From Treponema sp. Marseille-Q4130 (lineage in GTDB: Bacteria; Spirochaetota; Spirochaetia; Treponematales; Treponemataceae), in assembly GCF_014334325.1 (NCBI RefSeq), contig NZ_JACSET010000003.1, positions 186,001-250,000 on the forward strand: 64,000 nucleotides of DNA. The letters are read 5' to 3'. Shown one piece after another: positions 18,065-62,986 of the stretch. The translations under genes were made by a program, and so were the position numbers. The notes below the pieces were generated by a model, which did no database searches, had not been told where the DNA came from, and saw only the letters and a program-made list of their open reading frames with translations. How positions within the stretch are numbered: position 1 is the first letter of the stretch; the number at the start of each line of letters is the position of its first letter.

Positions 18065-18095
18065 AAACCTCTGCATGTTCTTTTATTGTCCATAA

Positions 18096-18231
18096 AATTC
18101 AACAGTCGAACAAAATATCAATTTTGGAGACTGTTGAATTAGTGCGCGCAAGCGCACATGTATATCCGCGAGTTTTCCGAAGGGAAACTCGAAGTTAAAT
18201 TGAACGGCGCTATTTCAGACGTTCAATTTAA
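18096..18231 (+). repeat. Four-hairpin structured repeat, copy R1
   Basis: Four successive hairpins: AATTCAACAGTC/GACTGTTGAATT (12 bp, with an inner CAAAAT-atca-ATTTTG), GTGCGC-GCAA-GCGCAC (18142-18157), CGAGTTT...AAACTCG (18169-18191) and TTAAATTGAACG/CGTTCAATTTAA (18195-18231). The last stem supplies the final codons and stop of the ketosynthase gene on the other strand. Copies R2-R4 lie at 60.9-61.3 kb. Confidence 0.85.
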
Positions 18232-19491
18232 ACCTTCGATCTTTTTAAACACGAGCGATGTGTTGACGCCGCCGAACGCGAAGTTGTTCGACATAACACA
18301 GTCGCACGAGATTTCACGCCCCGCACCTTTGATATAGTCGAGAGGCGCACATTCTGGATCGTCGTTTGTAAGATTGCAGTTCGGATGGAACCAGCCTTCG
18401 TTCATCATATTGATCGTAAGCCACGCTTCAACGCAGCCGCACGCGCCGAGCGTATGACCGATAAAGCTCTTCGTCGAAGAGATCGGCACCGCGCGTTTGA
18501 ACACCGAATACACAGCCTGCGATTCCGATATGTCGCCGTGGCTCGTCGCCGTGCCGTGCGCGTTGATATAAGCGATTTTGCTTTCGTCGATACCCGCGTC
18601 TTCAAGCGCCATCGAAAGCGCAAGCGCCTGCGTCGCAGCGTTCGGGCTTGTGATGTGCGTGCCGTCCGCGTTCGTCGCAAAGCCCGCGACTTCCGCATAC
18701 ATTTTCGCACCGCGCTTTACGGCGTGTTCCATATCTTCCAAAATCAGCGTACCCGCTCCTTCGCCGATAACAAGGCCGTCTCTGTCTTTGTCAAAGGGCT
18801 TCGGAGTCGCTTCGGGAGTTTTATTGAGGATGCTCGTAGCGCCGAGCGTATCGAAAATCGCAGCGTCGGGAGGAGAAAGCTCTTCCGCACCGCCCGCGAT
18901 CATGATTTCCGCCCTGCCGTCTTCGATCGCTTCGTACGCATAGCCGATCGCCTGACTTCCCGACGTACACGCGGTATCGGTTACGATGATGCGTCCGCGT
19001 ATTTGATAATAGACGCTCAAATTGCACGCGTTCGTCTGCGGCATCGCTTTGATATAGGTTTGCGAATCGAGCTTCGACGTGTCGCCCGTTTCCATCATGT
19101 CGGCGATATCCATAATCGCGTCCATGCTTCCCATGCACGTGCCGTATGAAATGCCGGTGCGGCCGCTCTTCAATTCGTCGATGACGTCTCCGTCGTCTTT
19201 TAACAATCCCGCCATTTTAAGCGCGTCTTCGGTCGATACGAGCGACAAGAGCGCGACGCGTCCCATGCCGCGAATCTTTTTCCGCGGAAACGACGGAAGC
19301 GCTTCTTCATACGGGCACGCAAGGCGCGTGTTCATCTTTTCGTAGCGTTCCCAATCGCTCATATATTTGATGCAGTTTTTGCCGGACTGCAGTTTTGCAA
19401 AAGCCGTCTGCCAGTCGCGGCCGAGAGCGGTCAGCATACCGCCACCCGTTACGACGACCCGCCGCTTTCCGTTCGGTTTTGTATACGTCAT
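18223..19491 (-). CDS. Beta-ketoacyl-ACP synthase (APE-type, last gene of the operon)
   Basis: 422 residues from ATG 19491 (GAGGT seven bases upstream). FabF-type thiolase fold with the complete Cys-His-His triad: VTDTACTSGSQ, NAHGTATSHGD and FIGHTLGACG. It condenses malonyl-ACP with a growing acyl-ACP. Position after KS, dehydratase and ketoreductase corresponds to apeR in proteobacterial aryl-polyene clusters. The last residues and stop codon come from the structured repeat at 18195-18231, so the original C-terminus may have been altered slightly. Confidence 0.92.
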   Translation of the reverse strand: MTYTKPNGKRRVVVTGGGMLTALGRDWQTAFAKLQSGKNCIKYMSDWERYEKMNTRLACPYEEALPSFPRKKIRGMGRVALLSLVSTEDALKMAGLLKDDGDVIDELKSGRTGISYGTCMGSMDAIMDIADMMETGDTSKLDSQTYIKAMPQTNACNLSVYYQIRGRIIVTDTACTSGSQAIGYAYEAIEDGRAEIMIAGGAEELSPPDAAIFDTLGATSILNKTPEATPKPFDKDRDGLVIGEGAGTLILEDMEHAVKRGAKMYAEVAGFATNADGTHITSPNAATQALALSMALEDAGIDESKIAYINAHGTATSHGDISESQAVYSVFKRAVPISSTKSFIGHTLGACGCVEAWLTINMMNEGWFHPNCNLTNDDPECAPLDYIKGAGREISCDCVMSNNFAFGGVNTSLVFKKIEGLN

Positions 19492-19856
19492 AGTTAACCT
19501 CGCTTGTAATTTTAGCATAAATACGTACGCGTATCAACGAAAAGTCAGGGCAGGGCAACCGCACCGGACGCCATATTCTCTAAAAAACAGCACGTACCGC
19601 AAAAAAAGCGGCTGCACTCCCGGCAACAGCCCTGCCGTTCGCCGCGGCAGACCGTAATCGGAATCGGACTGCGCGAATTTTTTCCAAAAAAATTCGCTTG
19701 CCATCGGTCTGAGCGGCTCGGCGGCAGTTCCGCTGCCTCGCGTTCCGCCTTTTTATTTACTTATACGTTCTTTTTCCGTACATACATTTCCGGTACGGTT
19801 GTCCTGCAAAAGCTGCACACGCAACAATTATACGACACTGAATTATTAATTAATAA
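19492..19856. other. 365-bp gene-free spacer inside the biosynthetic operon
   Basis: No credible gene. It holds a hairpin GCGAATTTTTT / AAAAAAATTCGC (19673-19697) and a GC-rich block at about 19614-19652 (cggcaacagccctgccgt...) that recurs with differences at 45994-46031. The long spacer is unusual between two genes otherwise expected in one operon. Confidence 0.6.
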
Positions 19857-60882: not shown

Positions 60883-60902
60883 TTTACGGAAACGTTCCTT
60901 AA

Positions 60903-61036
60903 AATTGCACAGCGAGTAAATCTTCGGATTTAGGAGCCGTGCAATTCGTGCGCGCAAGCGCACACGTACATCCGCGAGTTTTCGAAAGAAAACTCGAAAT
61001 TAAATTGAACGGCGCCATTTCACAAGTTCAATTTAA
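60903..61036 (+). repeat. Four-hairpin structured repeat, copy R2
   Basis: AATTGCAC/GTGCAATT outer stem with an inner AAATC-TTCG-GATTT (a C(UUCG)G tetraloop hairpin, 60918-60931), then GTGCGC-GCAA-GCGCAC (60948-60963), CGAGTTTTC-GAAA-GAAAACTCG, and TTAAATTGAAC/GTTCAATTTAA. Lies after the hydrolase gene; the whole 500-bp gap to 61386 is repeat copies plus a promoter. Confidence 0.85.
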
Positions 61037-61048
61037 ACCGTTCCTTAA

Positions 61049-61183
61049 AATTCAACAGTCGAACAAAATATCAATTTTGGAGAATGTTGAATTCGTGCGC
61101 GGAAGCGCACACGTACATCCGCGAGTTTTCGGAAGAAAACTCGAAATTAAATTGAACGGCGCTATCTCAGACGTTCAATTTAA
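61049..61183 (+). repeat. Four-hairpin structured repeat, copy R3
   Basis: AATTCAACA/TGTTGAATT outer stem as in R1, then GTGCGC-GGAA-GCGCAC (61095-61110), CGAGTTTTC-GGAA-GAAAACTCG and TTAAATTGAACG/CGTTCAATTTAA. Confidence 0.85.
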
Positions 61184-61194
61184 ACCTTCCTTAA

Positions 61195-61255
61195 AATTAT
61201 ACAGCGAGTAAATCTTCGGATTTAGGAGCTGGGCAATTCGTGCGCGAGAGCGCAC
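61195..61255 (+). repeat. Structured repeat, partial copy R4
   Basis: Keeps the AAATC-TTCG-GATTT hairpin (61210-61223) and GTGCGC-GAGA-GCGCAC (61240-61255), then stops before the third and fourth stems. Confidence 0.75.
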
Positions 61256-61385: not shown

Positions 61386-62102
61386 ATGACGATCGAAGAA
61401 GAAATCTTTGCGCGCTCGATACCCGATTTTTCAAAACTTGTGAAATTCGGTTTTATTAAAAACGGCTCGAAGTATTCGTTTTCCGGAAAATTTTTAAACG
61501 GCGATTTTACGGCCGACGTCGTTGTCACAGGCGGCGGGGATGTCAGCGCTTCGGTATTCGACGTACAGGCGGGCGAACGCTATCTTCCGCTCAGGGCGAA
61601 AAGCCGGCAAAGTGCGTTCGTAAACGAAGTGCGCGAAAGTTACCGAGCGTTTTTGAGGGAAATTAAAAACGCGTGCTTTATGCCGCAGCCGTTTTTGACG
61701 GATCAGGCGAACCGGATCGCGCGCGAAGCGGAAAAGCTTTTCGGTGATAAAATCGATTTTCCGTTTTCGACCGCTCCCGACTACGGCGTATTCAGAAATC
61801 CCGAAAACCGCAAATGGTACGGAATCATTATGAATATACCGAAAAGCAAAATCGAAAAGTCGGGGCGCGCTGCCTCTCTTTCGGCAGACGCTGCGATCGT
61901 CGAAATAATCAACGTAAAAATCGATCCTGAAAAAAGTATCGAGCTGAAAAAGCGGCGCGGTTTTTACGATGCGTATCACATGAGCAAAAAAAATTGGATA
62001 ACGATTGCGCTCGCCGGCAGCGTTTCCGACGGCCTTATCTTCGATTTATTAAAAAAGAGCCGTGCGCTCGTGTCGCCCCGCCCTTGTCGTACGCGCTCAT
62101 AA
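61386..62102 (+). CDS. MmcQ/YjbR family protein
   Basis: 238 residues in two parts. The N-terminal part (1-90; RSIPDFSKLVKFGFIKNGSKY, ADVVVTGGGDVSASVFD) is followed by a C-terminal MmcQ/YjbR domain (about 120-225; PDYGVFRNPENRKWYGIIMNI and KKNWITIALAGS). The double-wing DNA-binding-like fold is known but the function is not. The two-part form is common in spirochaetes and clostridia. Confidence 0.85.
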   Translation: MTIEEEIFARSIPDFSKLVKFGFIKNGSKYSFSGKFLNGDFTADVVVTGGGDVSASVFDVQAGERYLPLRAKSRQSAFVNEVRESYRAFLREIKNACFMPQPFLTDQANRIAREAEKLFGDKIDFPFSTAPDYGVFRNPENRKWYGIIMNIPKSKIEKSGRAASLSADAAIVEIINVKIDPEKSIELKKRRGFYDAYHMSKKNWITIALAGSVSDGLIFDLLKKSRALVSPRPCRTRS

Positions 62103-62119: not shown

Positions 62120-62986
62120 ATGGAACGATACGACATCGCGATAATCGGGACGGGGCCGGCAGGTTTGTCCGCCGCGCTCACCGCAAAAATTCGCAATAAA
62201 AATTTCGTACTTTTGGGCAGCAAGCGTTTAAGCGAAAAAATCGAAAAAGCGCATACGGTACAAAATTATCTCGGTTTGCCGAATATTACCGGAAGCGATA
62301 TGCAAAAGGCGTTTTATGCCCATCTCGATGCGATGGGGATCGAGATTACGGAAGCTCGCGTGCAGGCGGTATATCCGATGGGCACTTATTTCGGCTTACA
62401 GACGTCGATCGGTATGCTCGAAGCGGATGCCCTTATTTTGGCGACGGGCGTCGTCGCAGCAAAACCCTATCCGGGAGAGGAGCGCTTTCTCGGCAAAGGC
62501 GTAAGCTACTGTGCCACCTGCGATGCGCCGCTGTATAAAAATAAAACAGTTGCCGTCATCGCGTTCGGCACGAATGAAGAGAGCGAAGCGAATTTCCTCG
62601 CCGACCTTGCGGCGAAAACGTATTATGTTCCGATGTACAAAGGAGATGTGCGCGTGTCGGATAAAATCGAAATCGTGCGCGAAGTGCCGAAATCGATTGA
62701 AGGCGATACCTCCGTGCAAGCGTTGGTAACCGACGCGGGAAAGATCCGCACGGACGGCGTCTTTATTTTGCGCGAAGCGATTTCTCCGAGCCGGCTCGTA
62801 TCGGGCATCGAAGTCGACAACAACCACGTGCGCGTAAACCGCCGCATGGAAACGAGCGTCGCCGACTGCTTTGCGTGCGGCGATCTTGTCGGTCCGCCGT
62901 ATCAGTACAGCAAGTCGGCGGGCGAGGGGACGATCGCAGCTCTTTCTGCGGTAAGCTATCTCGATGCGAAAAAAAGGGGCGCGTAA
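62120..62986 (+). CDS. Thioredoxin-reductase-like flavoprotein lacking NADPH motifs
   Basis: 288 residues. FAD site IIGTGPAGLSAALTA at the N-terminus, redox pair SYCATCDAP (Cys-Ala-Thr-Cys) near residue 135, and ADCFACGDLVGPPYQ at the second FAD contact. Where TrxB has the NADPH Rossmann motif GGGDSA the sequence reads AFGTNEESEANFL, and the HRRxxxR phosphate-binding stretch is replaced by YVPMYKGDVR. This resembles the divergent or ferredoxin-dependent flavin thioredoxin reductases. No thioredoxin gene is adjacent. Confidence 0.85.
   Translation: MERYDIAIIGTGPAGLSAALTAKIRNKNFVLLGSKRLSEKIEKAHTVQNYLGLPNITGSDMQKAFYAHLDAMGIEITEARVQAVYPMGTYFGLQTSIGMLEADALILATGVVAAKPYPGEERFLGKGVSYCATCDAPLYKNKTVAVIAFGTNEESEANFLADLAAKTYYVPMYKGDVRVSDKIEIVREVPKSIEGDTSVQALVTDAGKIRTDGVFILREAISPSRLVSGIEVDNNHVRVNRRMETSVADCFACGDLVGPPYQYSKSAGEGTIAALSAVSYLDAKKRGA

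Follow-up and report, generated by a model that had tools for sequence, protein, structure and literature searches.

Structured repeat units in the window

The stretch of DNA analyzed here, 64,000 nucleotides from Treponema sp. Marseille-Q4130 (hereafter the window and the source genome, respectively), carries four copies, R1 to R4, of a hairpin-bearing repeat. An earlier note on this DNA, prepared from the letters alone, had placed three complete units and one partial unit here, and all four were found at those locations with their hairpins arranged in series (Table 1). R1 sits between the 3' ends of two convergent ORFs; a ketoacyl-synthase-like ORF, as judged by eye (window 18223-19518, minus strand), has its last codons and stop supplied by the H4 end of R1. 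R2, R3 and R4 form an array; the ORFs behind it, at window 61386-62102 and 62120-62986, are plus-strand ORFs and so have the less common orientation, and the second of them resembles by eye a thioredoxin-reductase-type flavoprotein. At the R1 site the genome G148 carries two units; at the R2-R4 site the comparison shows a single unit, with an H1 and an H4 of different type.

Table 1. Positions of repeat units, their component hairpins, their ends and their Rfam matches in the window
Feature	Positions	Strand	Description
R1	18096..18231	+	complete unit, H1-H2-H3-H4; match to our covariance model, 156.9 bits
R1 hairpin 1	18096..18140	+	type A, with an outer stem, an internal loop and an inner stem closed by ATCA
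R1 hairpin 2	18142..18157	+	GTGCGC-GCAA-GCGCAC
R1 hairpin 3	18169..18191	+	
R1 hairpin 4	18195..18231	+	variable stem round conserved loop GCGC.ATTTCAG
R2	60903..61036	+	complete unit; type B H1 closed by a C(TTCG)G loop, H2 GCAA, H3 GAAA
R3	61049..61183	+	complete unit; H1 type A, H2 GGAA, H3 GGAA
R4	61195..61255	+	partial unit: only H1 type B and H2 (GAGA)
R2 outer end	60893..60906	.	minus strand reads AATTTTAAGGAACG
Junction R2-R3	61039..61052	.	minus strand reads AATTTTAAGGAACG
Junction R3-R4	61185..61198	.	minus strand reads AATTTTAAGGAAGG
Rfam TD-1 (RF03155), R1	18091..18200	-	66.9 bits, above gathering score 64.5
Rfam TD-1, R3	61044..61152	-	60.1 bits, below gathering score
Rfam TD-2 (RF03162), R1	18142..18237	+	37.7 bits, below gathering score 48.7

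The loop sequences were likewise as claimed: the second loops of R1 to R4 read GCAA, GCAA, GGAA and GAGA, and R2 and R3 have the third loops GAAA and GGAA; the third loop of R1 is no plain tetraloop. R1 to R3 are much more stable than shuffled sequence on either strand (z against dinucleotide shuffles, plus/minus: R1 -8.7/-6.7, R2 -5.7/-5.2, R3 -6.3/-5.2; 0 of 200 shuffles as good), and the partial R4 moderately so (-2.8/-3.5; 1 of 200 as good). Because R1 to R4 beat their shuffles on both strands, folding energy cannot pick the strand.

Correspondence to Rfam families

The same note knew of no described element with this plan, a claim that has to be withdrawn, since the Rfam family TD-1 matches R1 above its cut-off. 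TD-1 gave no match up to E = 1 on R2 and R4, and TD-2, on the plus strand, scored R1 at 37.7 bits, R3 at 36.6 and R2 at 31.9, all below its gathering score of 48.7. Across the genus, TD-1 was found above cut-off in 15 of 146 genomes and at E <= 1e-5 in 52 of them; in the source genome each of the TD-1 matches listed (12 of 21) is opposite in strand to a match of the covariance model described below, 11 to matches of its first search and one to a match of the later run. Rfam holds two families in clan CL00124, typed Cis-reg (TD-1) and sRNA (TD-2); in the present case both match the same four-hairpin unit, each on a different strand. Judged from their alignment to the unit, they look like overlapping halves of a single element, TD-1 representing the H3'-H1' part and TD-2 the H2-H4 part; the TD-1 consensus, as displayed, has a further likeness to the element in its AGGA end, which resembles a Shine-Dalgarno (SD) sequence. 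If this is true, Rfam would have assigned different functions to opposite-strand parts of one mobile element, and the annotation of both families would need revision. Mobility is not mentioned in the Rfam fields examined for either family. The two families reportedly originate from a 2017 paper. A search of one paper collection for literature on TD-1, TD-2 or SD-targeted repeats in Treponema found none; a word search of PMC2864571 gave no mention of the element, and the accessible portions of PMC8040213 and PMC1590033 contain nothing on it.

Distribution and architecture of the repeat

A covariance model built from 33 source-genome copies returned 94 matches in the source genome, with 150 of the 1892 first-look candidates scored. 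Across the genus it matched 63 of 146 genomes, source genome included, beside which an earlier DNA screen (3 of 39 genomes) was insensitive. A later cmsearch run gave 82 matches rather than 94, some abutting units being lost, so that units per array are counted too low. Named records containing the core pattern include T. socranskii, T. parvum, a metagenome-assembled genome (MAG) of T. brennaborense and other Treponema MAGs. Two copies (L115:1990-2143 and L115:6260-6413) lie within a separate dispersed GC-rich repeat, which also occurs, free of the element, at several places in stretches of the genome G135.

The unit is about 136 nt long and is made up of four hairpins. H1 has an inner stem and an internal loop rich in purines; H2 has the stem GTGCGC/GCGCAC and H3 the stem GAGTTTT/AAAACTC; in H4 the stem varies and the loop is kept (mostly GCG...ATTTCAG). 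At least four sequence types of H1 (A-D) can be distinguished, and nested hairpins are sometimes present in H2 and H3. Such modules were noted at L037, L039, L029 and L117:2031-2255: a nested hairpin module (CTCGCAAC..) lies within H2 of some copies, and a module of about 65-70 nt lies within H3 of many D-type copies, G135 being without the latter at the L117:2031 site.

In the alignment of the 33 source-genome copies the structure is satisfied in 92.6% of cells. Covariation among these copies bore the structure out on most measures, the score of 0.307 exceeding both shuffled controls (0.121; 0 of 500 as high) and slid structures (at most 0.077), and did not do so for further pair types, of which there were 44 against 45.2 in shuffles, no excess; the structure so tested came from one of the 33 rows. 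Loops were counted over the 156 distinct copies among 163 aligned, and only where the stem was sound (148 for H1 inner, 149 for H2 and 133 for H3). The stable C(UUCG)G loop to which the earlier note had drawn attention is real in R2 and R4; in the family at large TTCG accounts for only 12 of 148 H1 inner loops and falls within a wider NNCR class (134 of 148: TTCA 43, ATCA 36, GTCA 17, TTCG 12, and others).

Loop conservation and the question of strand

The proposal that selection acts on the plus-strand RNA came with a test of its own, namely whether the second loop would prove random in a large set of copies. Over the 149 copies with a sound second stem it is non-random: 104 have tetraloops, and these are GNRA in 62 cases on the plus strand and in none on the minus strand (alignment-based counts, superseding a first extraction with 52 of 104). 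All eight GNRA types are present. Since the stem GTGCGC/GCGCAC is identical on both strands, the H2 loop provides a clean strand test. Position 3 of the G..A loops of H2 is a purine in 62 of 64 and a pyrimidine in the other two. Stable DNA loops follow a GNNA rule and are not known to prefer a purine at position 3, and set beside that rule the preference seen here would favor RNA. Tetraloops of H3 show a similar lean, with GNRA in 38 of 64 on the plus strand and in 3 on the minus strand.

The bias is unevenly distributed among copies. GNRA occupies H2 in 13 of 30 D-type and 29 of 49 other source-genome copies and in 20 of 70 foreign copies; it is present in 4 of 13 named T. socranskii copies and fails in T. 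parvum (1 of 15) and in the genome G064 (0 of 12), where the commonest loop is TCTTT. Non-canonical cells in the stems number 139 G-U to 118 A-C overall, with a G-U excess in stems 2-4 and none in stem 1 (H1 outer 46:75, H1 inner 9:8, H2 18:13, H3 23:9, H4 43:13), these being counts of non-independent cells in alignments fitted to the plus-strand model. Much of the A-C excess comes from three outer stem-1 positions, the terminal pair and two beside the internal loop, which may be misaligned.

Filled and empty sites with duplicated targets

An exact duplication with an exact empty partner was found at three genes, all with D-type units, the duplicated SD-containing targets being 5-7 nt long. 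Upstream of an FlgG-like gene, the genome G123 has an empty site reading CAATAAGAGAGGATATTTATG, and the source genome reads CAATAAGAGAGGA, the element, and GAGAGGATATTTATG, with the target GAGAGGA duplicated; a unit is present here in 5 of 18 genomes (the source genome, G148, G135, T. parvum and G064). Upstream of TpiA, G123 is empty with CTACAGGAGTTTTTATGG, and the source genome has CTACAGGAG, the element, and AGGAGTTTTTATGG, duplicating AGGAG. This site is filled in 4 of 18 genomes, namely the source genome, G148, G135 (an altered unit) and G103, in which a different unit is flanked by copies of TAGGAGTTAT. Upstream of a CdaA-like gene, both G123 and G148 are empty with GTAACGGAGGATTA, and the source genome, alone among 10 genomes, carries a unit, reading GTAACGGAGGAT, the element, and GGAGGATTA, with GGAGGAT occurring twice.

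Other sites were compared as well. Before the CdaA-like gene G135 has a 3' remnant of the element. In front of the source genome's second RPE-like gene (L246), GTTTTTAT stands directly before TGGAGGAAATATG and looks like a 3'-end remnant; the RPE-like site yielded no clean pair of filled and empty states. A sugar-kinase-like gene has a non-D unit upstream in the source genome and none in G135. Compared with G064, T. parvum carries an additional unit, which lies between two copies of AGGAAGG. In these comparisons 18 of the 20 G135 stretches were picked round known G135 matches, which favors filled sites, and the L026/L122 and L115 pairs are related rather than strictly orthologous sites.

Direct repeats in the flanks averaged 7.4 within copies versus 5.3 between copies (57 copies; 0 of 2000 permutations), a difference that is inflated by arrays and by stretches of the element that fall inside the flank windows, with element ends set by pattern. 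It was seen in the D type (7.0 versus 5.3; 25 copies, some cut short at the 5' end) and in the others (7.8 versus 6.1; 32 copies) alike, with 0 of 2000 permutations in each; the test covered the 57 of 82 copies that have both end patterns. Duplication lengths are variable. The D-type ends, ATGATAAAAAG.. and ..GTTTTTAT, are by eye weakly inverted with respect to each other; a MITE would share terminal inverted repeats with an autonomous transposon, and the search for such a partner covered Y1 and RAYT transposases. Taken at the level of sequence, the pattern expected of a mobile element with target-site duplication appears at the FlgG-like, TpiA and CdaA-like sites and at the extra T. parvum unit, and the genome comparison supports movement of copies.

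Genomic context and siting at SD sequences

None of 141 arrays, drawn from five sets that have orthologous sites in common, lies within a gene. Read along the minus strand of these arrays, the next gene has sense orientation in 89 cases (antisense in 46) and the previous gene in 99 (antisense in 35). In 45 of the 141 a sense start codon follows H1' within 40 nt; in 3 a start codon faces the opposite end. This orientation bias is significant on both sides in the source genome (p = 0.006 and 3e-5) and on one side in G064 (0.012); for G135, for T. parvum and for the named T. socranskii loci neither side reaches significance.

Siting at ribosome-binding sequences is concentrated in one subfamily. 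Of the 31 D-type copies of the source genome, 27 are followed by an SD-like motif, a start codon and an ORF of 60 codons or more, as are 10 of 51 non-D copies and 759 of 20,000 random positions (3.8%), scored with home-made gene calls and with a D label that is a pattern made after seeing the copies and differing slightly between analyses; at least two of the ten non-D cases (L018:2880 and L040) look spurious by eye. The window copies R1-R4 have no obvious SD, the ORFs round R2-R4 lying on the plus strand, and many copies follow stop codons or fall between convergent genes. The genes downstream are diverse: 20 of 32 listed were scanned and 19 had Pfam matches, ranging over PNPase, TpiA, aldolase, Hsp20, diadenylate cyclase, flagellar proteins, permeases and subtilase.

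Alternative functions and candidate mobilizing enzymes

Two readings would give the unit a role as RNA. The minus strand could act as a cis-regulatory leader controlling translation of the gene behind it, as the Rfam label of TD-1 implies; it folds stably, and position before start codons divides the subfamilies (27 of 31 D-type and 10 of 51 other copies), the D-type copies ending in sense orientation at an SD and start codon. Against such a leader stand the 20 scanned downstream proteins (of 32 listed), which have no common pathway, the close relatives that lack a unit at the same gene, the many copies located after stop codons or between convergent genes, and the conservation of loops on the opposite, plus strand. 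We regard this reading as possible but rather unlikely, noting that it and mobility are not mutually exclusive. Alternatively, the plus strand could be the functional structured RNA, an sRNA or antisense RNA, which was the view of the earlier note and corresponds to the label of TD-2. It draws on the H2 loops (62 of 104 are GNRA on the plus strand and none on the minus strand; a purine is the third base of 62 of 64 G..A loops), on the purine-rich internal loop of stem 1, and on the excess of G-U over A-C, 93 to 43, in inner stem 1 and stems 2-4; it is opposed by the contrary lean of the outer pairs of stem 1 (46 to 75), by the failure of GNRA in T. parvum and G064, and by neighboring genes that mostly run the opposite way, on the minus strand. 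The strand argument was half right, and we think a plus-strand functional RNA unlikely.

Two further readings seem to us quite improbable. Clusters of hairpins have been proposed as transcription terminators in genomes including T. denticola, according to the accessible part of PMC8355165, and in 20 of 78 source-genome arrays H4' is preceded, at a distance of 40 nt or less, by a sense stop codon; against this, the D type, in the same orientation, lies directly before start codons. The remaining reading makes the unit a REP/BIME-like passenger of RAYT or IS200/IS605-type Y1 transposases, a mobilizer first suggested when, in a screen of 39 genomes, the three that gave DNA matches showed Y1 domains. 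Intergenic hairpins with GGAG-like flanks and no long terminal inverted repeats accord with it, as does one RAYT-like gene of the genome G010 that has a unit in its leader (L082:5492-5658, 61 bits), between AGGAGG and GGGAGG; this may be an ordinary SD insertion or hint at a link. At the remaining 7 of the 8 RAYT loci inspected the model had no match. Of 21 element-bearing genomes 5 have RAYT matches, the source genome having none, and Y1 domains occur in 5 of 18; among the 14 genomes with at least 20 model matches, 10 are without a RAYT match and 8 without a Y1 domain, and the Y1 match of the source genome is partial. Y1 transposition, moreover, is not known to make a target duplication, which also counts against this candidate. 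The partial gene in the source genome, the surroundings of the loci and the wider screens led us largely to reject it, and the RAYT and Y1 screens of element-bearing genomes identified no mobilizing enzyme.

Discussion

Viewed together with the observed copy number and structure, the pairs of filled and empty sites, the duplicated targets at three genes and the placement of the D subfamily at SDs, the repeat is in our judgment probably a non-coding, modular hairpin element that has been mobile in Treponema and inserts in fixed orientation at AGGAG-like targets, duplicating them. In the mechanism we propose, insertion would take place in one orientation relative to a purine-rich target resembling AGGAG, GGAGG or AAGGAA, often an SD site, and would duplicate about 5-10 nt of it, to give on the minus strand the order target, H4', H3', H2', H1', target copy. 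Because that order ends in a copy of the target, the gene behind an insertion would keep an SD; because a target stands at each end of the element, further insertions would give head-to-tail arrays such as R2-R4. Re-targeting of the element's own ends would account for arrays of unlike units, for example R2 and R3. We infer that repeated insertion builds arrays in general and that the A-C subfamilies move as D does. Our guess is that the GNRA loops of the plus strand may serve a single-stranded stage, as RNA or DNA, of the mobile form.

The hairpin element itself, a repeat of oral treponemes, is already in Rfam, where it figures only as two separate fragments, and what is new is its probable mobility into ribosome-binding sites. 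Whether this amounts to a new class of mobile element, characterized by an SD-site target, a duplication that spares translation, growth into arrays, and a structured single strand bearing GNRA loops opposite the mRNA, we put forward as a tentative suggestion, on balance somewhat doubtful. Were it true, targeting and restoring the SD would represent an unusual, low-damage manner of spreading through operons, and would place portable structured leaders before housekeeping genes. The filled and empty pairs make both mobility and effects on translation directly testable.

Among known systems, the REP/BIME sequences associated with RAYT are likewise intergenic hairpin repeats with GGAG-like flanks; the present element differs from them in its target duplications and in that only 5 of 21 genomes bearing it have RAYT matches. 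The BOX elements of Streptococcus pneumoniae differ in being composed of boxA, boxB and boxC with terminal inverted repeats, and SD siting is absent from the accessible part of their description; they are likewise modular, structured interspersed repeats, with variable tandem modules and with target duplications (PMC3049150).
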